DNA from: Tubiluchus corallicola
Taxonomy: Eukaryota > Priapulida > Priapulimorpha > Priapulimorphida > Tubiluchidae
DNA: 64,000 bases
Direction: 5' to 3'
Assembly (NCBI GenBank): GCA_030141605.1
Contig: JAQGDQ010000608.1
Location: forward strand, 52,501-116,500
A model generated the notes under the pieces. It did not search any database, was not told the origin of the DNA, and saw only the letters and a list, made by a program, of their open reading frames with translations. Positions 1 through 63,249 of this stretch are shown here, in pieces (positions within the stretch are counted from its first letter, which is position 1; each line of letters opens with the position of its first letter). Position numbers and translations under genes: made by a program.

Positions 1-22473
<22,473 letters not shown>

Positions 22474-36361: not shown

Positions 36362-39300
36362 TTAAGAATTTTGACAAGTGGCTCCCTCGACGGGAATTGA
36401 ACCTTCATCATTCTCCACAAGTAGAACTAGTTTGGAGATCGGTCTGTCAAGTTCTGTATCCTGTGTTTTGACTCTCACGCTCCGGACTTGATCCTGACAG
36501 TCTGGATAGGTCCTAATAACGCGACATAATTTCCAAACGTTTCTAGGTTGATTGTCATCCATGATGAGGCAAATGTCACCGATCTTCAGTGAGCGCTTGT
36601 GATGAAGCCATTTGGATCTCGACTGCAGGCTTTGCAAATATTCTCTCTTCCACCGAGTCCAGAATTGTTCCATCAGATACTGGACTCTTCTCCATTGCTT
36701 GCGACAGTACAGGTCCGGTCGCTGGAAGTTTCCTGGTGGAGGAAGAACCACTCTTGTTTTCCCAGTCAAAATAGAATTGGGGGATAAAGGCAAAAGTTCC
36801 TGGTCGCTCAGTGCTTCAACTGTAATCGGTCGACTATTCATGACTGCCTCTACTTCGATCAACAGCGTCCTAAGAGATTCATCTGTGAGAAGTGCAGAAT
36901 TCTCTTGTAGCAAGGCTTCAAGAATGCGTCTCGAGGCCCCAATCAAACGTTCCCATGCGCCTCCATGGTGGCTGGCTGATGGCACATTGAATTTCCAATC
37001 TGCTCCATGCTGCAACAGATAATTGCGAATTTTTTCGTTGTCCATCTCTTTGAAGCATTCCTTTGTCTCAGTTATGGTTCCCACAAAGTTGGTACCGCAA
37101 TCACTTCGCATTTGCCTAATTGGACCCCTTCTGGCAAGGAAGCGACGTAGTGCCATAATGAAGGCATCTGTGTCTAGTGATGCAGCTAACTCTAAATGGA
37201 CAGCTCTGCTTACCAAGCAGGTAAAAATGATGCCGTAGCGTTTTAGAGTCTTACGGCCTTCTCGAACAAAAAACGGTCCAAACGCATCCGTGGCACAATA
37301 TGTAAATGGCGGTGATGGCGTGAGACGATCGACTGGCAGGACCGACATCTTTTGCTCTTCATGTGGGCGGCGTAACTTACGGCAAGTAATGCAGTTTCTG
37401 ATGACGTTGCGTACATTTGAATTGAGATTGATTATCCATAATCCTGCAGTTCGAATCGCGTTCATGGTTAGACCACGTCCAGAATGATGTACAATCTTTT
37501 CGTGAAACCATCTGATAATTAGCTTCGAAGTTGCCGTTTTAGGTGGAATTATGACCGGATGCTTCTCGCCAAATGTCAAATCGGATTGCTGTATTCTTCC
37601 ACCAACTCGCATTACTCCTAATTTGTCCACGAATGGGCTCAACGGTTTACAGTTTCTTTTAAAGGTTTCACCATTTCTCGACTGAAGAAGAAGGTATAAC
37701 ATATTCTCTGCGGCAAGTAATGACTCAACAGAAAATTGTCCATTCATTTCTACGTCATTCATTAAGGAGCTGGTAGTCGGCTTTGCAGTGGAAAGATTCG
37801 ATCTGAATACATTGCAAGCTCGCATAACTGTTGCAAGTGTTCTCTTCATCTTGTACCACGAAGAACAGCGTGATTCTAAAGTGTCAATAAGCCTGGTAGA
37901 GTCATGTGATGCAGCGCCAATTGTCCTGACTGATTTCAATTCGGGATCGGTCTCTGCAATGCTAAATGACTGCATGCCAGTTTTCTTCCAAAATTCATCT
38001 TCAGCATAAAGCATTTTCGGTCCACGAAACCAAATGTTGTTGTTGATAAACTGTTCTACTTGCTGACCTCGAGAAGCCACGTCACTCGGGTTTGATTTAG
38101 TATCAATATAGTGCCAATGCGTCGGGTTCGATTTGTCTAGAATCTGCTGCACTCTGTTGGCGACAAAAATCTTAAACCTCCTTGTTTGGTTTGCTATATA
38201 GCTCAACACTACTTTGGAATCGCTCCAATAATAATGCTGCGCGTTTTCATAGTCCAGCTCGTGGTCCAACATACTGGCAGTGTTCACTGATAATACTGCA
38301 GCTGTGAGTTCGAGTCTAGGCATGGTCACATGCTTGACAGGTGTGACACGAGCTTTACCTTGAATTAAGGTACAGTGTATCTGGTTGGTGCTATCAACAA
38401 GCCTTAGGTATGAACATGTACCATATCCGACCTCACTTGCATCAGAAAAGTGATGTATCTGGATGTCCTGTATTTCACCAAAATCATCTGGGTGAAAACA
38501 GCGAGGAATTCGTAACTGCTCTATTAAAGGCAAGCTTCGTCTCCAGATTTCCCAGCGTTGTCTAACATTTTCTGGTACTGACTCATCCCAACCAAGACGA
38601 TCACGCGTGAGTTCTTGCAGTATAATCTTTCCTATCAACAAGGCAGGTGAAATAAGACCCATTACGTCATAAATGCTGTGGATCGTTGAAAGTATGCCTC
38701 GTCGAGTCAAGGGTGTGTCATTCAGCCGTATGCGGAAACCAAAGGCGTCGTTTTGTATATACCATGACACGCCTAGGGCATACTCTATCTGTTCCTTGTA
38801 AGCGTTGATCGTTTTGCTTTCCCGGTTCGCACGATCTTCAATCGGAATGGCGGCTATGATCTCTGATTTGTTAGCAACAAACTGTGTTAATCTAAAATTT
38901 CCTTTCTGACAGAGATCCTTTAACTGTGTCGCTATAGCAGTGGCATCATGAGTTGTAGAAGCAAATTTACAACAGTCGTCCACATAGAAATTAAACAAAA
39001 TTGTTTGAGTCACATCGCGTGGGAAGGCAGTAACATTGTCTTTAGCTGTCTGCTGTAATGCGAAATTGGCACATACTCCTGATGATACTGCCCCAAACAA
39101 GTGGACTAGCATTCGGTAGTCACGCGGCGGATTTTTTGGGTCACCCTGGTCCCACCATAAAAATCTTACGTATTCTGCTTGGTGGCGTGGAATTGCAACC
39201 CTGTAGTACATCGATTGTATGTCGGCCATGAAAGCCGCTGGTCCTTGTCTAAAACGGCACAAGACTCCCAATAATGAGTTGGTTAAATTTGGCGCTTGCA

Positions 39301-40807
39301 AAAGTTCGTTGTTCAAGGAAGTTCCCATGAACACGGCGCTGCAGTTAAACACAACTCTGATTTTCTTCTTGCGCTTATGGTAAACTGGGTGGTGGGGTAT
39401 GTACCACACTTTTCCTGCATCTGGGTACGGCTCTGAGGGTGGCACCTTTTCGGCATATCCGTTTTCTAGCATCTTATTCATGAACGCAGTATATTCGTTT
39501 CTCAGCTCTTCAGCCTGAAACCTTTTGGCTAAACTGCGCATGCGCTGTTCGGCTTGTACCCTGTTATTTGGCATAACTGGATTATCCTTCTTGAATGGCA
39601 ACGGCACAACATATTTTCCATTCTTGTAACAAGTCTGCGCAGTAACTTTGTTCATGAAAAGCTTTTCCTCTTGAGAATCACCATAACCATTAGCGTCAGT
39701 TGCATTCTGAACGGCAGTAGGGATGCTAAACTGACAAGACGAAATTTCTTCGGTGGCGGCATCTGTGCATATCACCCGGCTATAGCTGGATCTAAGACCT
39801 TCGCGTGACGCTTTACCAATTACGCCCTGTACCGTCCAGCCTAAACGTGTAAGAACAGCATAACAATTAAAATCTGGGTGGCTAATGACTTGCAGAGGCT
39901 CCATTGCCTTTGGTGTGTTCATGCCTAATAGTAAACCAACTTCAACATTGTGCATTATAGGATGGAGTGATTTCGCTATGTCACTCAAATGCCTCAATTC
40001 TTCCACTTTGTTAGGATCTGGTATCTCGTTTCTATCAGCTGGAATTAACTCTTTCGTAAACAAACGTGGTAACTCAACGACGTTGCTACCATTCAAGCGC
40101 GAAACGCATAAACCATCAATTCCTTGTGATTTAATTAAATGAGTCCCACTAAGTGTGCGTAGGCGGATGTCAGTATACTGCCCGGTAGCCCCTAATTCTT
40201 CAGCTAGCTCTTCTGAAATGAAGCCGTCATTACTACCTGGGTCTAAGAAGCAGTAGGCTACGCGGCTGTTATGAACGTTATCTTTGTGAAAGATCTTAAC
40301 TGGGACTATTGCCATTGAAACTACGCTGTCGGCTGAAGTGACGTTACTAGTGTTTACGCGAGAAATTGAAGCAGTCGAAGTTGATTGATGTTGATTTGTA
40401 GGCTTAGCTTCACGTATTGCATCAGTTCGTAACTGTGAACTATCACCGCTTACACCTGACTGTGATTGCGTGTCGATATGAAGCACTGTGGGATGAGTGC
40501 GTTTGCATATATCACAATGTTTCTTAGATCTACAATCCTTATACGCATGAAAAGTCCCATTCAAGCATCCAAAACAAATTTTATTGTCTTTGACAAACTT
40601 TCTTTTGGCATCGTAGGAAAGCTGACTGAACTCTTTGCATTTATCTAAACGATGATTAGTAGCTGAGCAATAAAAACAAGGCCTTTGTTTTAGAGTTTGA
40701 CCCTTTGACATATTATTAGAGTCAATAGCGAATGATGACGATTTGCGACTACCACCTTTGGAAGTCTTAAATGTATGCTCTTCCCCTTTATCTGTAGATT
40801 TTGCCAT
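36362..40807 (-). CDS. pol: BEL/Pao Pol polyprotein (protease, RT, RNase H, integrase)
   Basis: 1481 codons from ATG 40807; the frame is open further upstream. Zinc knuckle CFYCSATNHRLDKC at residues 44-57 and a second Cys/His cluster at 78-110. Retropepsin-like FLDPGSNDG around Asp189 (family usually D-S/T-G). Reverse transcriptase with Asp529 and the YVDD box at 608-611. RNase H with Asp789, Glu833, Asp863 and Asp909. Integrase with an HHCC-type zinc site (His1102, His1107, Cys1139, Cys1142) and the D-D-E set Asp1174, Asp1236, Glu1286. A DUF5641-like C-terminus (WTRWKREYLQSLQSRSKW) follows. All catalytic residues I can check are present, so Pol looks intact. Confidence 0.96.
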   Translation of the reverse strand: MAKSTDKGEEHTFKTSKGGSRKSSSFAIDSNNMSKGQTLKQRPCFYCSATNHRLDKCKEFSQLSYDAKRKFVKDNKICFGCLNGTFHAYKDCRSKKHCDICKRTHPTVLHIDTQSQSGVSGDSSQLRTDAIREAKPTNQHQSTSTASISRVNTSNVTSADSVVSMAIVPVKIFHKDNVHNSRVAYCFLDPGSNDGFISEELAEELGATGQYTDIRLRTLSGTHLIKSQGIDGLCVSRLNGSNVVELPRLFTKELIPADRNEIPDPNKVEELRHLSDIAKSLHPIMHNVEVGLLLGMNTPKAMEPLQVISHPDFNCYAVLTRLGWTVQGVIGKASREGLRSSYSRVICTDAATEEISSCQFSIPTAVQNATDANGYGDSQEEKLFMNKVTAQTCYKNGKYVVPLPFKKDNPVMPNNRVQAEQRMRSLAKRFQAEELRNEYTAFMNKMLENGYAEKVPPSEPYPDAGKVWYIPHHPVYHKRKKKIRVVFNCSAVFMGTSLNNELLQAPNLTNSLLGVLCRFRQGPAAFMADIQSMYYRVAIPRHQAEYVRFLWWDQGDPKNPPRDYRMLVHLFGAVSSGVCANFALQQTAKDNVTAFPRDVTQTILFNFYVDDCCKFASTTHDATAIATQLKDLCQKGNFRLTQFVANKSEIIAAIPIEDRANRESKTINAYKEQIEYALGVSWYIQNDAFGFRIRLNDTPLTRRGILSTIHSIYDVMGLISPALLIGKIILQELTRDRLGWDESVPENVRQRWEIWRRSLPLIEQLRIPRCFHPDDFGEIQDIQIHHFSDASEVGYGTCSYLRLVDSTNQIHCTLIQGKARVTPVKHVTMPRLELTAAVLSVNTASMLDHELDYENAQHYYWSDSKVVLSYIANQTRRFKIFVANRVQQILDKSNPTHWHYIDTKSNPSDVASRGQQVEQFINNNIWFRGPKMLYAEDEFWKKTGMQSFSIAETDPELKSVRTIGAASHDSTRLIDTLESRCSSWYKMKRTLATVMRACNVFRSNLSTAKPTTSSLMNDVEMNGQFSVESLLAAENMLYLLLQSRNGETFKRNCKPLSPFVDKLGVMRVGGRIQQSDLTFGEKHPVIIPPKTATSKLIIRWFHEKIVHHSGRGLTMNAIRTAGLWIINLNSNVRNVIRNCITCRKLRRPHEEQKMSVLPVDRLTPSPPFTYCATDAFGPFFVREGRKTLKRYGIIFTCLVSRAVHLELAASLDTDAFIMALRRFLARRGPIRQMRSDCGTNFVGTITETKECFKEMDNEKIRNYLLQHGADWKFNVPSASHHGGAWERLIGASRRILEALLQENSALLTDESLRTLLIEVEAVMNSRPITVEALSDQELLPLSPNSILTGKTRVVLPPPGNFQRPDLYCRKQWRRVQYLMEQFWTRWKREYLQSLQSRSKWLHHKRSLKIGDICLIMDDNQPRNVWKLCRVIRTYPDCQDQVRSVRVKTQDTELDRPISKLVLLVENDEGSIPVEGATCQNS

Positions 40808-40866
40808 AGCTTGTCGGCTAAGAATAGGATGAGATAAACTTTTCGTCCTATCACTGATATGTTTAA

Positions 40867-41475
40867 CTACCTCGGTGAATTTCGGCGGTCTACCATAAGT
40901 TCATAACGCTTTTCTATTTTCTGCGCATGCTCAAGAACTTGATCTTGCATACGATAGGGTAGCTTAGAGCAAACTAATTGTATAGTACACGGGTCATCTA
41001 GCGATAACAAATATGCATTATCATGCATAGATGCTCCGCAATTGTTCAGAAAAGCAGAAAACTCTTCAACTGAATCGACGTCATCCATTTTTGTGATAGG
41101 CTTCCAAGATCTCAATTTAGTTTTAAATGCTGCAGCAGCGACTGACGAATTCCCGTATTTAGCGTGCAATGCGGCAACGGCATGATCGTACGGCTTCCTA
41201 TTATTCTCTGATGCTTCAACTAATGTCTGTGCCTTTCCTTCAGTGTACTGAACCAAATATCTGTACAACTGTAACTGATCAGTTATGCAAGTTTCAAATG
41301 TCTGTTTAAAAACTGTGATAAAGGCGTTATATTTTGTTACGTCATGTCCATTAAATTTCACCAATTCAGGCGGCGGTAATTTTTGCAAACTGACTATCTG
41401 GTTAAGACATTTCGCTTGATCTAGAAAAGCTTTAGCAATTAACTCGGGGTCGATGGCTACTGTAGTCCGGCATTC
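40867..41475 (-). CDS. gag: BEL/Pao Gag core (DUF1759-like), out of frame with both neighbours
   Basis: The Gag-typical region PELVKFNGHDVTKYNAFITV and VEEFSAFLNNCGAS is read in a frame offset by one base from the SAP segment and from Pol. The open frame extends upstream of any Met to about 41475, so no separate start is needed if the offset is a shift. It ends at a TAG at 40867; the Pol frame is open across the same bases. Because the two offsets cancel, two compensating small indels, or sequence errors, in what is normally one long Gag-Pol frame are the simplest reading. Programmed frameshifting is less likely. Confidence 0.85.
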   Translation of the reverse strand, partial: ECRTTVAIDPELIAKAFLDQAKCLNQIVSLQKLPPPELVKFNGHDVTKYNAFITVFKQTFETCITDQLQLYRYLVQYTEGKAQTLVEASENNRKPYDHAVAALHAKYGNSSVAAAAFKTKLRSWKPITKMDDVDSVEEFSAFLNNCGASMHDNAYLLSLDDPCTIQLVCSKLPYRMQDQVLEHAQKIEKRYELMVDRRNSPR

Positions 41476-41773
41476 TTTGCGATTGCTGTCGTGAGATGTC
41501 TACTAACGTGCGCTGCTGTAAGTCCGCAATAGGTAGTTGTTGACCTTGACCATCAGGTGTCTGGGATTCGCTTATCGGCTCAGGTAAATCTTCTATCATG
41601 GCGTCGCTTGTTCTCTCGGCTTCATGGCGGGCGTCTCTCGCGTCCTTCAGCATCCTGGCGATGAGTTGGTCCTTAGTGCCCTCCTCTGGTAGTCCATAGT
41701 CTATACATAAGTTTTTCAAATCGGCTTTGTGCATTTTACGTAAGTTGCTCTCCGTGAGTGCTAATTGAGCCAT
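41432..41773 (-). CDS. gag: BEL/Pao Gag N-terminal segment with SAP motif
   Basis: An ORF of 113 codons starting at ATG 41773, just inside the 5' LTR. Residues about 9-43 fit a SAP motif (LRKMHKADLKNLCIDYGLPE, then TKDQLIARML). SAP helices bind AT-rich DNA in chromatin proteins and occur at the N-terminus of some BEL Gag proteins. It ends at a TAA at 41432, while the Gag core continues in the next frame, which overlaps from about 41475. This segment and Pol are in the same frame (starts 966 bases apart). Confidence 0.85.
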   Translation of the reverse strand: MAQLALTESNLRKMHKADLKNLCIDYGLPEEGTKDQLIARMLKDARDARHEAERTSDAMIEDLPEPISESQTPDGQGQQLPIADLQQRTLVDISRQQSQRMPDYSSHRPRVNC

Positions 41774-41803
41774 CTCTACACCCCTAGCAGTAAATGTCTA
41801 TGA

Positions 41804-44084: not shown

Positions 44085-47000
44085 GTAAAGATAGCCACTT
44101 ATTAATTTATCTATGTTGTAAGCAGTGAGCTTAGCATCTTAAATTCCTACTTTTCAAAACTTACCCGACTGCTGTATTATATTTAATAAAATTGTGTTTA
44201 CTATTTGTAAACAAAATTGATATAATAATAAAATCAATATTGTATGAGCAGTGATTTCAAAACTACATGACTACAATTGCATGATAACCTTTTTACCTCA
44301 TTTTAATTTAGCACTTAATGTTAATAATGCTATTCGATAATGATCTACTAGTCAGTATACTTTAAATTTGTAATTAACATCACGCAATTAGAAGCATTTC
44401 ACTTGCTTGAGATCTTAAATTGTACTGAGGCTGATGTGTCACCTTTAATTGGTGAAGCTAGTGATTCTTCTTGTCAATGAAATATTACAGTACTTCCTAT
44501 ACACATGTTTATTTCACTCTCTTTGGCTAGTTTAACATTAATATATCAGGCCTTGACTTCTGTTCCTCATAATGTCTTAATGTAACAATATGTTATTCAT
44601 GGCATTTTGAAAATAAACGGAATTAAGCTAGACTAATTTAGGAGATTGCAAATTTAAAAACATTTTTGTTATTTATTTACTTATAAAATGCAAAAAACAC
44701 AAGTTTTTCAACAAAACTGTTTTTATGTCACAGCGAAAGGAATGCTATCAATGTTTACGTGCGAGTACGTCCTCCTGATTTGCCTTCTGGTAATGAGTTT
44801 GAGCGAAGAAGCTGCGTGGAGGTGACGAGCGATAGATCGCTGATGATGAAATGCAAGCCGGAAGCAAAAGTCTACACGTTTGATAAAGTTGCTGATACGC
44901 TAGTCACTCAGGTTTGAAATATTAAACCTTTTCACAGTTTCGTTGTGCGCACGTGCAGTTACTGCAGGTCATATGTTAAGTGTACCGCAGCAGCGCGTCT
45001 TAACTACAACTATCACGTGACATGTGGGTAAAGCAAAGCCGTCTTGCACATCAGTTAGTAACTTCAGTTATTTTACATGCAATTTACTTAATTATGCATT
45101 AGCCAGTGCATAGAGTGATCTACTACCAGGATCTTGCTTGTGAACAATACAAAATCAACTATATAAGGTTGTAGCTAGCTGTTAAAACGGTTACTATTAC
45201 AGCAGCATGGGCACAAATGCGTTGTCTGGCACACTCAACCTTTGACCTTTTCACGATCATCGTCAATCACTGGAACTGGAACTGCGAATGTAGATAGGTG
45301 TCATTAAATTGCCAGCTGTTTTACAAATTTGAGAAAAATATTTGAAACAGTTTTAAAGACATTTTGAACATTTCTCAAACATTATTTGTGCTGATAGATA
45401 GCGGGAATCATGGCATATACTATGCTCTCTAGTCCATGCTCTCTACTCCGTACTAGTTTTTCTAGAATGTCTTACGTGGAAGAATTATTGTGGCAGAAAC
45501 CTAGTTTCACGCTTGCGCGGTTATTTCTTCACTGTTAGATGCATTTTTGCCATTTGCTAGTTAGACGGACACTTGCACCACACGGAATGTTGTATAGCAG
45601 CACTGTACTTCAATTTTCGCTTTCGCAAACGCGTGCAATGCGCTCGTGGAATGTTTGTCGTGCTGTTGGAGATTATGTTCAGTTGTGATGTCATCCCTTA
45701 GTTGGGTAGCCTGTTATTTGGTTATCAGAAATGTCTTGGCCTTATTATAGGTGTTAAAATGTATGCTTATGGCCGTGCTACAAAATGGGGTAGGATGTGA
45801 AAAATCATCCTGTTTTCCTTTAAATGAAAAGCATATTTTTTCCTTGATGTTTTTTCAAATTTTACCTTGTTAGCCAGTTAACTTGGTATTAACGTAGTTG
45901 TAATTCTACGAAGCCGTGTTAACGTAGTTGTAATTCTAGGAAGCCGTGTTAAGGTAGTTGTAATTCTAGGAAGCCGTGTTAACGTAGTTGTAATTCTAGG
46001 AAGCCGTGTTAAGGTAGTTGTAATGCTAGGAAGCCGTGTTAACGTAGTTGTAATTCTAGGAAGCCGTGTTAACGTAGTTGTAATTCTAGGAAGCCGTGTT
46101 AACGTAGTTGTAATGCTAGGAAGCCGTGTTAACGTAGTTGTAATTCTACGAAGCCATGTTAACGTAGTTGTAATTCTAGGAAGCCGTGTTAACGTAGTTG
46201 TAATTCTAAGAAGCCGTGTTAACGTAGTTGTAATTCTACGAAGCCATGTTAACGTAGTTGTAATTCTAGGAAGCCGTGTTAACGTAGTTGTAATTCTAGG
46301 AAGCCGTGTTAAGGTAGTTGTAATTCTAGGAAGCCGTGTTAATGTAGTTGTAATTCTAGGAAGCTGTGTTAATGTAGTTCTAATTCTAGGAAGCTGTGTT
46401 AATGTAGTTGTAATTCTAGGAAGCCGTGTTAATGTAGTTGTAATTCTAGGAAGCCGTGTTAACGTAGTTGTAATTCTAGGAAGCCGTGTTAACATAGTTG
46501 TAATTCTAGGAAGCCGTGTTCGGTTCTGTGGGAAAACCTATAATTGAGAGCTGCATGGCAGGCTACAATGGCACCATCTTTGCTTAGTGAGTAGAAACCT
46601 CATTCAACTAATGAGTTTTTTTATCAAACTATTTGCGTCTTGAATTCTGTTCATTTTTGCTTTCATTTCAGTTCAATTCAGTTATATTTTATTATTAATT
46701 AATTTCCACTTTATTGATATATTGCAATTCTTTATTTTTCAGACTATATATATATATATATATCAAGGACTACTATACAACGCACTATTTATAGATTACG
46801 TTCATACAAGTATTGATCGCCTCCGCTAGCGGAATCAGAGATCTAAGCGTGCACATCCTGTTGTATAGTAGTCCTTGATATATATATATATATATATGTA
46901 TGTAGAAAATTTCTTTATACTGAATTTATGACTGAATTTAATTTGAATTTTTTTTAGTCAGCTCTTTTCCATTTGTTGACATTTGGTGATTTTTTTTAAG

Positions 47001-50000
47001 ATGCTTGTTTTGTTTCTAGTGGCCAGACAGGATCGGGCAAAACCTTCACCATGCTGGGACCGTCGGAGGAGTCGGACACGTTTCGACACGAACTGAGAGG
47101 CATCATTCCCCGTACGTTCGAGTACTTGTTCAATCTCATCAAGCGACAGCAGGATATGGTAAACACGAGTTCGTTATGTTGTACTTAGGAAATTAATTAA
47201 TGAAGGCAAGATACAGCGCAACTCAGCAAAGTATACGGTAGCAAAATTAACTGACAGTCGTGATGAAAAACATGACAACTGATGCTCATTAATTTAACAA
47301 GTTACATTCATCGATGTGGCTTGCAAAGACGTTACCGAAACGAAATTTTCGGTTTCGGCAAAATTTATTGAGTTTCGTTGCGGACGTTTTGGATAATTTT
47401 CGATAGCATTTTTCAGAGATTTTACTAGTATTTATCCAATTTGCCTTTTCTCCTAGATGTCAAAAACCGCCGAAAAATCTTGGTTGAGTTAGTTCAAATA
47501 AAGCAAAAATTTCGTTTACATAACAGTTTGTGACGTGCTTTTCACGGCAATGCGGCACTTTCTTCAGTGCTGACGTGCATTTCTCGGCAATGTGGCATAT
47601 CTTCAGTGCTGACCTCAGTGCTTGCGGTTGCCAAGCCCAATCAACTGAAATATCAAACCGCGTTTGAATTTATTTGAGCTAAATTGTGTTTAATTTCATA
47701 ATTTATGAAATACAGGCAACAAAATAAAATTTGTTTATTTTTAATGAACTTTAGACATTAATCATTAAGGATACTTAAATCCAAAAACATTATATCACAT
47801 TAATTTTTCTAATGTAAGCCACTGATACTTGAGGGTCTATACTATAAAATATTCTTGTGTTTCTATCAGTAATTTTATCACAGCAAATAAAAGCAGATAA
47901 ACAAAAAACAAATTTTTTTGGTGTGTAAATTCAGTTTCAGCACCATCCCTGATTGCGTGGCGCCATAATAATAATAATAATAATAATAATAATAGTAATA
48001 ATCTTTATTTAAGGTCTGCTTTTGGGTCACTATTATCGCCGACTGTAAATAACAACCTACAACTAGATAACAGAGACTATTATTACCCCACTTTTACCCT
48101 AAATACCACGTGTCAGGCAGGGTAACAGCAGGTACCATTTTTAAAGTCTTTGGTACGAACTCACGACCTCCCAGACGAAAAGCAGACGCATTACCACTAG
48201 ACTAAACCGTCTGGTCAAAACCTATGTAAATCATCGTTATGCAGTAAGAAAAGTAAACCTAAATACCTCTAGCAGGTGCTAAGATACCTCTAGTAGGTGC
48301 TAAAATACCTTTAGTAGGTGCTAAATTACTTCTAGTAGGTGCTAAAATACCTCTTGAAACAGTTTATTTATCAATACCATTACAAAAAAATATACAACCT
48401 AATTTCTGTGTGTTACTGTAAAAAAAGAAATCGTTGATATTTCCCTAATATTTAGAACAACTGATTTACTTTAAATACTGTAACACGGCTGTTGTTGATT
48501 CATCACTACGGCAGAGAACCCATCAATAAGCACCTGTTACTAGTCATTGATGTATCTAAGAAGGTGCTACGTGTTGTCAGAACTTACTTAGGTAGTCGAA
48601 ACTTGTACATGACACAATTGTTCTGAGAATGCAAGCATCAATCGCTATTCAAAAATAGAATGTCCATTTTGTAATAATGATGACACAAAGAAGCATTAAT
48701 ATTTGACATCTGACACGAAACTAGATAAAAGGTTTAAACGATTTTTTACGAGGAAAACATACAAAATTTCCTTTCTTTTTTATGTTGTATTTAGCGTCAC
48801 ATGCCGGGTAAGTACTAGAACAAAACCAGACCCAATGTTAAACTCTGGGTCAAAACAACCTATTCTTTACAATATAAACTATTTATTCAAAAATGACTTA
48901 CGTAAAAGAATTATTACCAAACAAACGCAATTTAGCATTCGCCGTAACTAGTTGTTCTCTGTTACATGCATTTCGCCATTCGCTAGTTAGACGGGCACTA
49001 GCACCTGCATTTTGGAAAGTGTTGCACAAAAAACATGTGCTGTTCCTTTCAATTCAGATTTATTAGTTTGTGACGAACTACACGTTCCACAGCTCATGCG
49101 TGAGTACCCCGTTAAATTTTAAATTTCAGTTTTTGTCTTAAAACTTGCCTGGTTTTAGTGCATAATACTAAATGTCTTACAGTACCACTGTACTTCAATT
49201 TTCTCCTTTACACGCTCGTGGAATATTTTTGCGGTCGAAAATCATGTTAGTTTGTGATGCCATCACTAGTTGGGCTCGTCTGCAGTTAATTAAGATTTTA
49301 ATCCATCATTTAATTATCAGATAACGCGAAGATTAATGCAGTTAAATTACTTAACATGAAGATGTTGATAAGCCGTTATAATTACCTCTTGATCCATAGA
49401 AACACGAAGCAGTGGAATTTCTTTGCAAATGCTCTTTCATTGAAATCTACAACGAGCAAATCTACGATCTTCTGGATGCCGCATCTCCGTCTCTTCAGCT
49501 AAGAGAGAATATAAAGAAAGGGGTGTTCGTTGATGGAAACATCGAAGTGGCTGTCAGTACAGCAAACGAAGCATATCAAGTAAGTTTGCTGTATCACAGT
49601 AAGTCCTCGCTTAACGACGCTAAGTTCTCGCTTAACGACGCTAAGTCCCCGCTTAACGACGCTCAGTCCTCGCTTAACGAAGCTAAGTCCTCGCTTAACG
49701 ACGCTAAGTCCTCGCTTAACGACGCCAAGTCCTCGCCGAACGATGCTAAGTCCCCGCTTAACGACGCTAAGTTCTCGCTTAACGACACTAAGTCCTCGCT
49801 TAACGACGCTAAGTCTCTGCTTAACGGCGCTAAGTCCTCGCTTAACGATGCTAATGCATTCCAGCAAAACGCCACTTAAACTTAAAGCTTAACTTCATTA
49901 AACGAAACCAAAACTTGCATAGAAAGTAATGTAAAAGAAGCGAGATACGTTCCAGAGGCAAAAATCAATGCTACTTAAATCACATAAATTAAATGTTTTA

Positions 50001-56000: not shown

Positions 56001-59000
56001 CTTATTAAAACTTCGAAATCTAAACTCTGCCTTTATACATTTATTTCATGACAAGGTAAGCTGGTTCATGCACAGTAATTCTTCACTTTTCTATGGTTTA
56101 TATGCTGTAGGGATAAAATATTAGCTTCTCTTGTAAACTTGTGACATCTTACATGTTTCCACTCCATTTTAACTCAATAAGCCTTTTGATAGTTCCAGCA
56201 ATTGATGATGATCGTGAAAAGGTCAAAGGTTAAGTGTACCAGACAATATATTTATGTACACTTGACAATGCCCCATCGCCTATGCTTTTGTAATAGTAAA
56301 AGTTTCAACAGCTAGCTAGAACCTTACCTAGTTCATTTTTTCTTGTTCCCAAGCAAAATCCTGCTAGTAAATCACTCTACGCACATACTGATGCATAACT
56401 AAGTAAAGTTCACCTAAAACAACTGAAGTTACTGAACTGATGTGGTAGATGCCTTTGTTTTATGTCTACGTGTCCATGTGACTGTTATAGTTAAAACACG
56501 TTGCTGTGATATACTTAACCTTTGACCTGCAGCAACTGCGCATGTGCCCAAAACTTAAATTTTACTTTTCGTCCAAACTGAATTCTGATATGTTTGTATC
56601 CAATTTTAATACATCTTTAATTTGAAAAATGTCATTCATATTCACTCCTTTCTCGTTGTTTAAACGGCGCAGATGTTTTGGAGAAACTTTGTCGACGCTC
56701 AACTTTGCCCATCGCGCAAAGATGGTAAAGAACAAAGCCGTGGTCAACGAAGACACCGTGGGCAATGTGGCAAATCTTCAAGCGGAGATTAAGAAACTGA
56801 AAGACGTCATCCAGCAGCTGAAATCTTCTGTGCACATCTCGCAAGATCTTCCTGGAACAGGTGCTTATTTGTTCTTATGTAGTGATGCTGGCTTGCAGGA
56901 AAAAATCATGCTTTTTTGTAAAGTGATGGCTTTTTTGAAGCCATTTGAGTAATTTGATAAAACTATATAAGTTGCTTAACTGAATGTAGTTCTGCTGTGT
57001 GTGGGTAAATGTATTTTAAGAAATTTCTGCATAAAATTTAATATTGTTGTGTAACAAAGTACATATAACTTAGTTATAGTAATAAACACTTGACATTTCT
57101 ACAATTTTTTTACGTCTTTGTCACGTAAATTCTCCCAAAACAGTGAAAAAACCTGCATTGGAATTTGCAAGTGACAAAAATGGCATATGAGCTTTTTGTA
57201 TTTAAATCTAACACATGGCTGTGACTTGTGCCAGTACAACAGGACTAATTTGTAAATAGTAATATGACCATATCATTGGCACTAAATAGTAATACGACCA
57301 TATCATTGGCACTAAATAGTAATACAATCATATCATTGGCACTAAATAGTAATACAATCATATCATTAGCACTAAATAGTAATACAATCATATCATTAGC
57401 ACTAAATAGTAATACAATCATATCATTAGCACTAAATAGTAATACAATCATACAATTAGCACTAAATAGTAATACAATCATATCATTAGCACTAAATAGT
57501 AATACAATCATATCGTTAGCGTAAATAGTAATACAATCATATCATTAGCACTAAATAGTAATACGACCATATCATTAGCACTAAATAGTAATACAATCAT
57601 ATCATTAGCACTAAATATAATGCCATATTTAGCACTAAATAGTAATACGACCAATCATTGCACTAAATAGTAATACACCATCATTAGCACTAAATAGTAA
57701 TACGACCATATCATTAGCACTAAATAGTAATACGACCATATCATTAGCACTAAATAGTAATACAATCATATCATTAGCACTAAATAGTAATACGACCATA
57801 TCATTAGCACTAAATAGTAATACGACCATATCATTAGCACTAAATAGTAATACGACCATATCATTAGCACTAAATAGTAATACGACCATATCATTAGCAC
57901 TAAATAGTAATACGACCATATCATTAGCACTAAATAGTAATACGACCATATCATTAGCACTAAATAGTAATACGACCATATCATTAGCACTAAATAGTAA
58001 TATAACCATATCATTAGCACTAAATAGTAATACGACCATATCATTAGCACTAAATAGTAATACGACCATATCATTAGCACTAAATAGTAATACAATCATA
58101 TCATTAGCACTAAATAGTAATACGACCATATCATTAGCACTAAATAGTAATACGACCATATCATTAGCACTAAAAACAACACAAAAAAACCCAACAACAC
58201 AAAAAAACACCAACAACACAAAAAAACAACAACAACACAAAAAAACACCAAAAACACAAAAAAACACCAAAAACACAAAAAAACAACAACAACACAAAAA
58301 AACACCAACAACACAAAAAAACAACAACAACACAAAAAAACACCAAAATTAGCACTAAATAGTAATACGACCATATCATTAGCACTAAATAGTAATACGA
58401 CCATATCATTAGCACTAAATAGTAATACGACCATATCATTAGCACTAAATAGTAATACGACCATATCATTAGCCTAAATAGTAATACGACCATATCATTA
58501 GCACTAAAAAAACACCAACAACACAAAAAAAAACCAACAACACAAAAAAACAACCAACCAACACAAAAAAAAACCAACAACACAAAAAAACAACCAACCA
58601 ACACAAAAAAACCCCAACAAACAAAAAAACAACACAACACAAAAAAACAACAACCAACACAAAAAAACAACAACCAACACAAAAAAACAACAACACACAA
58701 AAAAACAACAACCAACACAAAAAAACAACAACACACTAGTAATACAATCATATCGTTAGCACTAAATAGTAATACAATCATATCAACACAAAAAAACAAC
58801 AACTTAGCACTAAATAGTAATACAATCATATCGTTAGCACTAAATAGTAATACAATCATATCGTTAGCACTAAATAGTAATACAATCATATCGTTAGCGC
58901 TAAATAGTAATACAATCATATCGTTAGCACTAAATAGTAATACAATCATATCATTAGCACTAAACTGTAATACCGCAATATCATTAACACCTAGCTTTAA

Positions 59001-62000: not shown

Positions 62001-62651
62001 ATACAGCAGCCAGGTCATACCAGAGACTTGAAAAATGGTACCGCCTGTTGCCCTACCTGGTGCGTGGTATTTCTGGTAAAAGTGGGGTAATACTAGTCTC
62101 TGTTATGTAGTTGTAGGTTGTTATTTACAGTCAGTGATAATAGCTCTTTGAGCTAATGTTAATTGTTGATCCAAAAGCCGACTTTTAATAGAGATTATTA
62201 TTGTTATTCAAATTTAATACCGCTAACAACGAAGTGATAAAAAATTCAAAACAAACAAGTTTTACAGTAAGTTTATAATAAAATAAATTGAATTTTTGTA
62301 ATGAGAGTAGGATTTTAAGTTGTAAAAGCTTATAGTGAGAGTTCGGGTTGATTTTAAGTAACTAATATGCATTTATGGTTAAGCCTCCTCAGCTAAGATA
62401 TTTTATGAGGAATTGTTTTAATCTTTAATTCTTTTGACAGACGGCTTTGAAAGAGGAAGTGAAATTGCTAACATCTCAACTGGAGCAACATCCAATGTTG
62501 ACAAAATATGCCATAGAAAACAACGAACTGAAACGCGAGATTGAAGAAATACAGAAGAGCACATCTTACCAACAGTCTGTTCTCTACGATTCAGCAAAAA
62601 CCGAACAGCTTCTGAAACTTCTGAGGGACTTACTGGCATCAGATGAGAACG
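44033..62651 (+). CDS. KIF15: Kinesin-12 (KIF15-like) motor protein, 13 exons, both ends incomplete
   Basis: Exons: 44033-44084, 44734-44911, 46510-46586, 47020-47158, 49400-49579, 52263-52364, 52491-52598, 52960-53085, 55725-55783, 56673-56860, 59093-59217, 60345-60503, 62441-62651. Phases are consistent throughout, giving 568 codons. The motor domain is complete: P-loop GQTGSGKT, switch I NRESSRSH, switch II DLAGSE, and neck region [22 protein letters not shown]15-type peptides ([52 protein letters not shown]) separate it from other kinesins. Kinesin-12 is a plus-end motor that supports bipolar spindles alongside Eg5 and acts in neurites. The stalk starts in exon 11-13 and continues beyond the window; human KIF15 is about 1388 residues. 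Confidence 0.95.
44734..44911 (+). CDS. KIF15: KIF15 exon 2 (motor beta-1)
   Basis: Encodes [17 protein letters not shown] at the kinesin beta-1 strand and [14 protein letters not shown], as in KIF15 TFTFDHVADVDTTQ. Acceptor tgtcacag, donor gtttga. Confidence 0.95.
44954..45273 (+). mobile_element. MITE with AGGTCAAAGGTTAAG termini, copy 2
   Basis: Same order as 14774-15118: GCAGTTACTGCAGGTCATAT, ATGCAATTTACTTAATTATG, TAGCTAGCTGTTAAAACGGT, CTCAACCTTTGACC. KIF15 intron 2. Confidence 0.75.
45458..45830 (+). repeat. Dispersed repeat family F, copy 2
   Basis: Contains ATGCATTTTTGCCATTTGCT, CTGTACTTCAATTTTCGCTT and AAATGGGGTAGGATGTGAAA in the family order. KIF15 intron 2. Confidence 0.75.
45871..46520 (+). 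repeat. 30-bp array built from the KIF15 exon 3 acceptor, about 21 junction copies
   Basis: Twenty complete units in 45901-46500 plus the terminal one that is the real junction. Each unit is TAATTCTAGGAAGCCGTGTT plus AACGTAGTTG. TAATTCTAG is the intron end and GAAGCCGTGTT the exon start. A few units have lost the AG (tctacg at 45907, 46147, 46237). Read in the exon frame, each upstream unit meets an in-frame TAG at codon 6. Confidence 0.96.
46510..46586 (+). CDS. KIF15: KIF15 exon 3 (its acceptor is the last unit of a 30-bp array)
   Basis: Encodes [20 protein letters not shown] then GTIFAY, matching KIF15 [26 protein letters not shown]. Acceptor taattctag, donor gtgagt, phase 0 to phase 2. 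The acceptor and first 11 exonic bases are the terminal unit of the array at 45871-46520. Confidence 0.95.
46763..46878. mobile_element. 116-bp mini-MITE between (TA)n tracts
   Basis: Perfect 19-bp inverted ends TCAAGGACTACTATACAAC (46763-46781) and its reverse complement (46860-46878), embedded in alternating TATATA on both sides. KIF15 intron 3. The (TA)n could be the target or part of the element. Confidence 0.75.
47020..47158 (+). CDS. KIF15: KIF15 exon 4 (P-loop)
   Basis: Encodes [20 protein letters not shown], the ATP-binding Walker A loop, then [17 protein letters not shown]. Acceptor tgtttctag, donor gtaaac. Confidence 0.97.
47320..47965. other. Possible degenerate hAT-like MITE
   Basis: ACGAAATTTTCGGTTTCGGC near 47340 and TTCAGCACCATCCCTGATT near 47935 resemble the two ends of hAT-type MITEs. 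Weak; otherwise KIF15 intron 4 without a gene. Confidence 0.3.
47966..48216 (-). mobile_element. tRNA-derived SINE, copy 2
   Basis: Reverse orientation: (ATT)n tail at 47966-48001, body, then the A-box head CTAGTGGTAATGCGTCTGCT on the minus strand ending at GACCAG. KIF15 intron 4. Confidence 0.88.
48262..48356. repeat. 22-bp tandem repeat, about 4-5 copies
   Basis: Unit ACCTCTAGTAGGTGCTAAAAT with small variations. Confidence 0.9.
48880..49300 (+). repeat. Dispersed repeat family F, copy 3
   Basis: Contains ATGCATTTCGCCATTCGCTA, CTGTACTTCAATTTTCTCCT and CTAGTTGGGCTCGTC. KIF15 intron 4; ends about 100 bases before exon 5. Confidence 0.75.
49400..49579 (+). CDS. KIF15: KIF15 exon 5
   Basis: Sixty codons with [20 protein letters not shown] and IKKGVFVDG, diagnostic of kinesin-12. 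Acceptor gatccatag, donor CAA|gtaagt. The frame stays open for 100 codons past the donor through a 21-bp transposon-end array. Confidence 0.96.
49597..50562 (+). mobile_element. DNA transposon remnant (Tigger/pogo-like ends) inserted 17 bp after the KIF15 exon 5 donor
   Basis: Left end CAGTAAGTCCTCGCTTAACG, right end TTAAGCGAGGACTTACTG followed by TA: inverted ends of about 18 bp. The subterminal left motif CGCTTAACGACGCTAAGTCCT (given here as CGCTTAACGACGCTAAGTCC) has expanded into about 12 tandem 21-bp units (49604-49858). No transposase. Confidence 0.75.
50988..51446. mobile_element. MITE with CCGTATTTTCCCGTGTAT ends
   Basis: Inverted ends of at least 26 bp starting CCGTATTTTCCCGTGTAT at 50990 and ending ATACACGGGAAAATACGG at 51444. 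Flanks TTTA / TAAATTTA suggest a short target duplication. KIF15 intron 5, no ORF. Confidence 0.85.
51905..52136 (+). repeat. Dispersed repeat, second copy of 6590-6841
   Basis: Same blocks and same right end (GCAAAATTTTTTGCGGGG, TTTGCTAGT). Ends about 125 bases upstream of KIF15 exon 6. Confidence 0.8.
52263..52364 (+). CDS. KIF15: KIF15 exon 6 (switch I)
   Basis: Thirty-four codons [20 protein letters not shown] then [14 protein letters not shown]; contains the NxxSSRSH switch I. Acceptor tgtttgaag is an AAG rather than the preferred CAG/TAG, but codon phase and conservation place it here. Donor gtaata. Confidence 0.95.
52491..52598 (+). CDS. KIF15: KIF15 exon 7 (switch II)
   Basis: Thirty-six codons with [25 protein letters not shown] is kinesin switch II. 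Acceptor tttcctag, donor gtaagt. Confidence 0.97.
52690..52862. repeat. (AATAT)n microsatellite
   Basis: About 33 pentanucleotide units, KIF15 intron 7. Confidence 0.97.
52960..53085 (+). CDS. KIF15: KIF15 exon 8
   Basis: Forty-two codons: [20 protein letters not shown] then [16 protein letters not shown], the microtubule-binding helix alpha-4/alpha-5 region. Acceptor ttttccag, donor gtaagt. Confidence 0.97.
53100..54116. other. KIF15 intron 8, no element recognised
   Basis: AT-rich intron DNA; nothing beyond short simple repeats (AAATAAACAAATAAAC near 53660). Confidence 0.6.
54117..54525 (+). mobile_element. hAT-type MITE, copy D (internally deleted)
   Basis: Starts CTGGGGTGTGCAAATTGCGG and ends ATTTGCACACCCCTG, flanks TCTTACTT / TCTTACGT (7 of 8). 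It lacks part of the right interior (GTGGCCCGGCTAGTCAG directly joined). KIF15 intron 8. Confidence 0.9.
54526..54964 (+). repeat. Dispersed repeat family F, copy 4, left part
   Basis: Family F sequence interrupted at about 54965 by a LINE fragment and resumed at 55552-55605 (AAATGGGGTAGAATGTGAAA). The hAT copy D lies against its left end. Confidence 0.7.
54965..55548 (-). mobile_element. 3' end of a non-LTR retrotransposon (RT C-terminal tail)
   Basis: The minus-strand frame 55413-55096 encodes [44 protein letters not shown] and [10 protein letters not shown]. This is the typical tail after the reverse transcriptase of RTE/Jockey-like LINEs. The minus strand begins GGTCAGGAAGGGCATCCGCC near 55470, also typical of such 3' regions. 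It is 5'-truncated and disrupted, and is inserted in the family F copy. Confidence 0.75.
55725..55783 (+). CDS. KIF15: KIF15 exon 9 (donor duplicated)
   Basis: Encodes [19 protein letters not shown] and ends in phase 2 (AG|gtatgt), completing Arg with exon 10. The donor and following 80 bases are repeated 83 bases downstream. Confidence 0.95.
55781..55960 (+). repeat. 83-bp tandem duplication starting at the KIF15 exon 9 donor
   Basis: CAGGTATGTCGAATATATAC at 55781 is repeated at 55864. The copies are identical for about 70 bases, after which copy 2 carries 15 extra bases. The second CAG|gtatgt is a duplicate 5' splice site that would add 83 bases and shift the frame. Confidence 0.95.
56194..56540 (-). 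mobile_element. MITE with AGGTCAAAGGTTAAG termini, copy 3
   Basis: Inverted relative to copies 1 and 2: AAAGGTCAAAGGTTAAGTGT at the left, TACTTAACCTTTGACC at the right. KIF15 intron 9. Confidence 0.75.
56673..56860 (+). CDS. KIF15: KIF15 exon 10 (end of motor, neck)
   Basis: Encodes [40 protein letters not shown] and a short coiled segment. Acceptor ggcgcag, donor gtgctt, phase 1. Confidence 0.96.
57260..58985. repeat. Composite array: 30-bp units interleaved with (CAACACAAAAAAA)n blocks
   Basis: Units of ATCATTAGCACTAAATAGTA plus ATACGACCAT run from 57260 to 58172 and resume at 58347-58505 and 58735-58985. Between them are two blocks of irregular ACACCAACAACACAAAAAAA repeats (58173-58346 and 58506-58734), and a third tiny block at 58784-58803. 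Unit variants (ACAATC versus ACGACC) are regionally clustered. KIF15 intron 10. Confidence 0.95.
59093..59217 (+). CDS. KIF15: KIF15 exon 11
   Basis: Encodes [13 protein letters not shown] and [20 protein letters not shown], corresponding to the KIF15 region where YMEYFQEAMLFFKKSEQEK stands. Acceptor taatttcag, donor gtatga. Confidence 0.88.
59411..59620 (+). mobile_element. Possible hAT MITE remnant
   Basis: TCAGCAGTTCCTAACCTTTT and AAGTACCCTTT resemble the common animal hAT end CAGTGGTTCTCAACCTT...GTACCC. The other end was not found. Confidence 0.4.
60120..60217. mobile_element. Possible MITE end
   Basis: GATTAATCTATTAATCGCCC then ATCACTAG is a common right end of hAT-like MITEs (inverted CTAGTGATGGGCGATTAAT). 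Left end not resolved. Confidence 0.35.
60345..60503 (+). CDS. KIF15: KIF15 exon 12 (coiled coil)
   Basis: Fifty-three codons, [20 protein letters not shown] then [20 protein letters not shown], with heptads; equivalent to KIF15 IQSNKMIVKFREDQIIRLEK. Acceptor tttttag, donor gtaagt. Confidence 0.93.
60645..61190 (+). repeat. Dispersed repeat family F, copy 5
   Basis: Most complete copy: GAATTATTACCACACAAACA, ATGCATTCGCCATTCGCTAG, CACTGCACTTTAATTTTCGC, and AAATGGGGTAGTATATGGAA then AATCATACTG. KIF15 intron 12. Confidence 0.78.
61940..62208 (+). mobile_element. tRNA-derived SINE, copy 3
   Basis: Head GACCAGACGCTTTATTCTTT with B box GTGAGTTCGATACAGC (diverged), body GGTATTTCTGGTAAAAGTGG, end AAAAGCCGACTTTTAATAGA and a very short (ATT) tail. 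KIF15 intron 12. Confidence 0.85.
62441..62651 (+). CDS. KIF15: KIF15 exon 13 (coiled coil; donor begins a 23-bp array)
   Basis: Seventy codons with [20 protein letters not shown] and [14 protein letters not shown], equivalent to KIF15 EIQTLREQIEHHPRVAKYAMENHSLREENRRLR. Acceptor tttgacag; donor AACG|gtgagt is the first unit of the array at 62646-63249. Confidence 0.94.
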
Positions 62652-63249
62652 GTGAGTCGTTGTCCAGCTGAACGGTGAGTTGTTGTCCAGCTGAACGGTG
62701 AGTCGTTGTTGTCCAGCTGAACAGTGAGTTGTTGTCCAGCTGAACGGTGAGTTGTTGTCCAGCTGAACGATGAGTTGTTGTCCAGCTGAACTGTGAGTTG
62801 TTGTCCAGCTGAACAGTGAGTTGTTGTCCAGCTGAACGGTGAGTTGTTGTCCAGCTGAACTGTGAGTTGTTGTCCAGCTGAACGGTGAGTTGTTGTCCAG
62901 CTGAATGGTGAGTTGTTGTCCAGCTGAACTGTGAGTTGTTGTCCACCTGAACGGTGAGTTGTTGTCCAGCTGAACGGTGAGTTATTGTCCAGCTGAACTG
63001 TGAGTTGTTGTCCAGCTGAATGGTGAGTTGTTGTCCAGCTGAACGGTGAGTTACTGTCCAGCTGAACTGTGAGTTGTTGTCCAGCTGAACTGTGAGTTGT
63101 TGTCCAGCTGAACTGTGAGTTGTTGTCCAGCTGAACGGTGAGTTGTTGTCCAGCTGAACGGTGAGTTGTTGTCCAGCTGAACGGTGAGTTGTTGTCCAGC
63201 TGAACTGTGAGTTGTTGTCTCGCTGAACGGTGAGTTGTTGTCCAGCTGT
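62646..63249 (+). repeat. 23-bp array built from the KIF15 exon 13 donor, about 26 copies
   Basis: Unit GAACGGTGAGTTGTTGTCCA plus GCT, directly continuous with the exon: the last five exonic bases GAACG are part of the unit. Most copies keep GTGAGT. Skipping the first donor reads into an in-frame TGA at about codon 7 after it. Confidence 0.95.

Follow-up and report, generated by a model that had tools for sequence, protein, structure and literature searches.

A probable mirage-type minisatellite across the 3' splice site of a KIF15 exon in an apparent protostome

The analysed stretch of DNA (hereafter the window) is 64,000 nt long and corresponds to C828:52501-116500 in a 343.5-Mb assembly of 2344 contigs. 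It contains a KIF15 gene, identified by 222 residues assembled from the window that match KIF15 chains in the PDB with E values down to 8e-91. Exon matches to KIF15 proteins begin at 44723 and extend to 70638 in the window plus its continuation (tblastn with eight KIF15 queries, with matches listed for four: limpet, sea star, mussel and human), and no entry named as Priapulus occurs among the 120 KIF15 matches listed. A minisatellite lies across the acceptor of one short KIF15 exon (Table 1). The intron after this exon also holds an inverted-repeat element with TA-rich ends (~46745-46898), MITE-like by eye, and a large compound array, comprising 30 bp x 42 and other repeats (TRF), lies inside a KIF15 intron at 57253-58973. 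Elsewhere in the window, exons of ELMO (engulfment and cell motility) are found on the minus strand at 7767-8021 and 9776-10069, pieces of which match ELMO1/2 in the PDB, and by eye at ~1881-1992. Beside an opposite-strand ELMO frame is a 36 bp x 6 array (10190-10406) with TTTTTCAGG-like sequence in its units, at no visible junction. Long open frames on the minus strand at 36362-41797 resemble a BEL/Pao retroelement by eye.

Table 1. KIF15 exons, intron and arrays. Positions are those of the window unless a locus is named; a slash marks a splice boundary.
Feature	Position	Strand	Basis
Exon preceding the acceptor array, ending ADTLVTQ/gtttga	44732..44911 (start approximate)	+	tblastn of KIF15 proteins; donor position
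Intron, 1598 nt, terminating within the array	44912..46509	+	
Acceptor minisatellite, 21 units of 30 bp, across the 3' splice site of the 76-nt exon	45889..46518	+	TRF
Last unit, authentic acceptor AG at 46508-46509	46489..46518	+	frame, homology
76-nt exon, 25 residues then (Y), donor GTGAGT from 46586	46510..46585	+	tblastn
Exon ending NEAYQ/gtaagt	49400..49579	+	tblastn
Array, 21 bp x 12, 20 nt inside the intron past the donor of the preceding row; not junction-spanning	49600..49854	+	TRF
Coiled-coil exon ending LLASDENG/gtgagt, phase 1; next exon (L039) starts in phase 1	62441..62651	+	
Donor minisatellite, 23 bp x 26	62647..63248	+	TRF; frame
Donor array, 44 bp x 41.6 (~42), starting within the final coding nucleotides of the exon whose end reads NTIK	L039:2757-4583, directly downstream of the window		

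The original prediction of a 3' splice site amplified about 21-fold at a KIF15 exon is borne out by TRF, which reports a 30-bp period at 45889-46520 with 21.1 copies, 95% matches and a score of 1131, well beyond chance. The unit consensus consists of 21 intron-type bases, TTAACGTAGTTGTAATTCTAG, followed by 9 exon-type bases, GAAGCCGTG, and departures from it total 19 positions over the 21 units, which bear distinct shared variants. The exon-type bases are present in 17/21 units. The acceptor AG is also kept in 17/21, being replaced by TAC in units 1, 9 and 12 and by TAA in unit 11. TTAAC opens 14/21 units, with TTAAG in 3 and TTAAT in 4, and its second A falls, by counting, 17 nt ahead of the G in the AG position; TTAAC and AG occur together in 10/21. 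The expectation that every unit would hold the intron end, the exon start and TTAAC describes most units but fails as a universal statement: 4/21 are without AG, 7/21 are without TTAAC, and the exact sequence TAATTCTAG is found in 15/21. An 18-base pattern, TAATTCTAGGAAGCCGTG, has 13 occurrences in the 343.5-Mb assembly, all of them within this array.

The last unit adjoins the coding sequence of the exon. Its junction, TTCTAG/GAAGCCGTGTTCGG, opens a 25-residue peptide that shares 68-72% identity with the four KIF15 proteins that have listed matches and is contiguous with the end of the preceding exon (tblastn), and KIF15 proteins align over it without an added stretch. Homology and frame therefore agree with the proposal that the last unit is the true junction. 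With a unit length of 30 nt, divisible by three, any upstream acceptor would join in frame, and each of the 16 upstream units that have AG reads EAVL(T/R/M) before a stop, TAG, at codon 6, as foreseen; the last unit alone continues into KIF15 without a stop. The stronger claim that the spliceosome must use the final unit holds for the reading frame and does not carry beyond that level.

Acceptor strength was compared using a weight matrix from 75 script-chosen sites of the same genome, a small set that serves as a rough guide. In this matrix the authentic site reaches 3.1 bits, within the range of -1.8 to 4.3 spanned by the 16 upstream units with AG, so that every AG-bearing array copy falls below the lower tenth of the training set (4.5; lower quartile 6.5, median 8.7). 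Several AGs upstream of the array outscore every array copy (for example, 9.6 bits at 45751), and another accepted KIF15 acceptor, that of the exon from 49400, scores only -1.2 in the same matrix. Because the array copies are similarly weak, strength cannot single out the last one and a positional rule is needed. Position, probably acting via exon definition, is the most likely selector of the last copy. In a transcriptome-wide study, long flanking introns were associated with a shift toward those sites that lie nearest across the exon; overall, upstream 3' splice sites were preferred, and exon definition significantly lessened this preference, with no reversal stated in the available text (PMC9225289). 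The 76-nt exon, lying between introns of 1598 nt upstream and 434 nt downstream, presents a setting that would favour the closest sites across the exon, in the terms of that study as available (PMC9225289).

The acceptor array is one of three junction-spanning arrays in KIF15, the other two being donor-side. The array at 62647-63248 contains GTGAGT 25 times and GGTGAGT 15 times. Frame identifies the first copy as the authentic donor, read-through into the next unit meets TGA, and the next exon, in L039, begins in phase 1 (CTACTAG/GTGATGG), which fits that first copy. In the array immediately beyond the window, AAGGTAAG is present 37 times; the exon end at which it starts (exon L039:2618-2797) aligns with KIF15 of other animals, and read-through past the first donor meets TAA. 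Two arrays in other genes are built similarly. On C1314, a 71-bp x 10.9 acceptor array stands in a kinesin gene, and its last copy opens an exon read as GSEKVRESKGQGTLTEANNINRSLLVLG; AG is kept in 7/11 copies and lost in the four outermost. The second, a 36-bp donor array with 7 copies within the examined slice, belongs to a myosin gene on C2144. The anatomy of the KIF15 acceptor array thus recurs at four further arrays with supported exons (two in KIF15, C1314 and C2144), in each of which the exon-touching copy reads as the authentic junction, a status that is partly inherent in the way these arrays are identified. On C5, a 33-bp x 48.5 array lies behind an exon-like frame of 27 residues that ends at the first donor; the peptide had no PDB match at E 10, and the array was left out of the proven junction-spanning set.

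The wider sample comprised 30 kinesin loci from a family search, some overlapping and five with a long single-frame match at the centre, plus 80 short slices at other kinesin or myosin exon matches; the two family searches reported 111 and 93 matches. Junction-spanning arrays number one among the 30 loci (C1314) and one among the 80 slices (C2144), where arrays were counted only at four or more copies and the other matches were short or of two to three copies. The C1314 array borders an exon next to the matched one, and the count over the 30 loci covers mainly the matched exons themselves, none of which is touched by an array of at least three copies; the nearest (L015) is 61 nt away and is not junction-spanning. 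Other candidates were also set aside. The array at 931-1754 lies some 120 nt beyond an exon-like frame on the minus strand, and the 72-bp repeats of L089 and L147 begin ~50-90 nt past the donor and run to the slice end. Several kinesins (L009-L012), including KIF3B-like and KIF2-like genes, have the whole motor domain in one open frame, and many further kinesin matches are broken up among short exons. On C917, several myosin matches occur twice in opposite orientation with identical scores, and the contig looks palindromic or duplicated.

We consider it quite probable that the KIF15 array is a mirage-type minisatellite in which the exon-touching copy serves as the working 3' splice site and the outer copies are weak decoys. 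A segment of ~30 bp straddling the intron-exon junction would have been tandemly duplicated and expanded into the intron, with the copy adjoining the 76-nt exon remaining the working site. The outer copies would be decoys of comparable weakness, whose use appends an in-frame stop and would probably lead to nonsense-mediated decay. Exon definition, by which the closest sites are paired across a short exon between longer introns, would pick the exon-proximal copy. The array would then be tolerated rather than functional, although its length may weakly tune productive splicing.

How such arrays arise is a separate matter. KIF15 has 41 junctions and 8 arrays, and 3 of the arrays span a junction, where placing one unit of each at random would yield a mean of 0.36 (P(>=3) = 0.004); the calculation uses our own list of exons and arrays, with exon ends partly approximate. 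Across the assembly, triple GGTRAGT at spacings fitting 15-45 bp repeats gave 3100 matches versus 983 for the reversed motif, and triple TTTCAGG gave 336 versus 120 for the control; these are counts of matches rather than arrays and are dominated by long arrays. Single motifs outside masked arrays showed ratios of 12:8 and 14:9 (68 kb, window plus continuation). The motif counts indicate an excess of splice-like motifs within arrays, and leave birth at junctions unproven. Together with the KIF15 figures they suggest preferential seeding at splice junctions by a splicing- or transcription-linked process rather than by chance, which we regard as possible but unlikely. That origin is weakened by the choice of KIF15 itself, which was picked because of the finding, and the 2 junction-spanning arrays at 110 loci elsewhere are close to the number expected from the general array density by rough, uncomputed arithmetic. 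Among seven donor-motif arrays with examined flanks, only the C5 array has an exon-like frame at the first donor; five (C12, C17, C19, C26 and C29) have no exon ending there and are not junction-spanning, and one (C21) was not counted, as the flank examined lay within the array. One acceptor-motif array among the matches listed (window 10191) likewise lies away from any visible junction. Among the matches listed, at least 8 arrays were found in C1-C29 for the donor motif versus at least 11 in C1-C229 for the control, with contig sizes unequalised, several of the 8 coming from two dispersed families and the C19 array falling in both sets. A glutamate-receptor-like frame was seen by eye upstream of the C19 array.

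A broader proposal holds that junction-spanning minisatellites form a genome-wide class in scalidophoran ecdysozoans, that they arise with a preference for splice sites through a mechanism linked to splicing or transcription and shared with or convergent on that of amphioxus, and that copy number tunes productive transcripts; we view this as speculative and distinctly unlikely. Less probable again is a regulatory role, in which upstream units are used measurably and a length-tunable poison-exon extension sets the KIF15 level via nonsense-mediated decay. The uniform arrival of the upstream AG-bearing units at the same stop and an authentic site about as weak as the decoys would suit such a device, but AG has been lost in 4/21 units, as drift would give, and the amphioxus precedents are reported, in the text available, to leave splicing undisturbed (PMC3087553, PMC3902484). 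That the array was inflated or misassembled is very improbable: tandem arrays are assembly-prone, and one amphioxus mirage was apparently wrongly assembled in a draft according to the available text (PMC3087553), but the units here carry distinct shared variants, and unrelated arrays with other periods lie at junctions on other contigs and elsewhere in KIF15.

An uninterrupted KIF3B from this genome has its best match in Priapulus caudatus (73% identity) and in a tree groups with Priapulus (100/100), beside a group of two chelicerates and three other proteins (91/92), with two Branchiostoma proteins apart. Thin as the evidence of a single protein is, it argues strongly for placing the genome away from lancelets. 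A KIF2-like protein has no clear relative; its first three matches listed are under the fish Lepidogalaxias, at 50-57% query cover, followed by others that include myriapod, chiton and hemichordate proteins. Mitochondrial COX1 gave no match in the assembly. With splice-junction minisatellites present in an apparent protostome, they would no longer be peculiar to lancelets; should mirages exist in ecdysozoans as well as cephalochordates, then either their birth at junctions or their tolerance needs a general explanation. Such arrays are natural constructs of 17 to ~40 near-identical competing splice sites, and a series of them directly tests spliceosome choice among equal sites, exon definition and the effect of copy number on gene output.

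NAGNAG tandem acceptors have two AGs within a few nucleotides. The KIF15 array resembles them in that several AGs would compete for one exon, but its acceptors lie 30 nt apart, most have their own branch-like motif and the alternatives lead to a stop. It has tandem copies of splice signals in common with the Rogers model of intron gain via duplication of an AG/GT proto-splice site (as cited in PMC3087553), but the KIF15 copies add no recognisable new exon and appear to lie on the border of an intron that was already present.

In amphioxus, tandem duplications of exon-intron boundaries at either intron end have been termed 'mirages' and are described as unstable in length and somatically, with cases in Adh3, the globins BflGb6 and BflGb9, and TnC, and similar repeats in PGBD5 (PMC3087553, PMC3902484, in the text available). 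Judging from Adh3 data and globin RT-PCR, mirages seem to leave regular splicing undisturbed (PMC3087553), and the same is said of the Adh and TnC mirages (PMC3902484). As in these cases, the tandem unit in the present genome spans an exon-intron boundary on the acceptor or donor side, and many but not all copies keep AG or GT. The KIF15 acceptor array is likewise a minisatellite (30 bp x 21.1) with the authentic boundary inside its unit and AG in 17/21 copies. Unlike amphioxus, where the two haplotypes of BflGb6 carry 6 and 3 units of 150-160 bp and Adh3 units measure 10-72 bp (PMC3087553), the apparently ecdysozoan genome examined here has three such arrays in a single KIF15 gene, with up to ~42 copies, known from sequence alone. 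No report of mirage-type arrays outside lancelets, including in ecdysozoans, was recognised among the matches listed in a literature search that covered few subscription papers. The KIF15 array is a genuine and large case of the known mirage kind in an apparently new animal branch, with companion arrays in KIF15 itself, and in the cell its last copy would be expected to act as the splice site.
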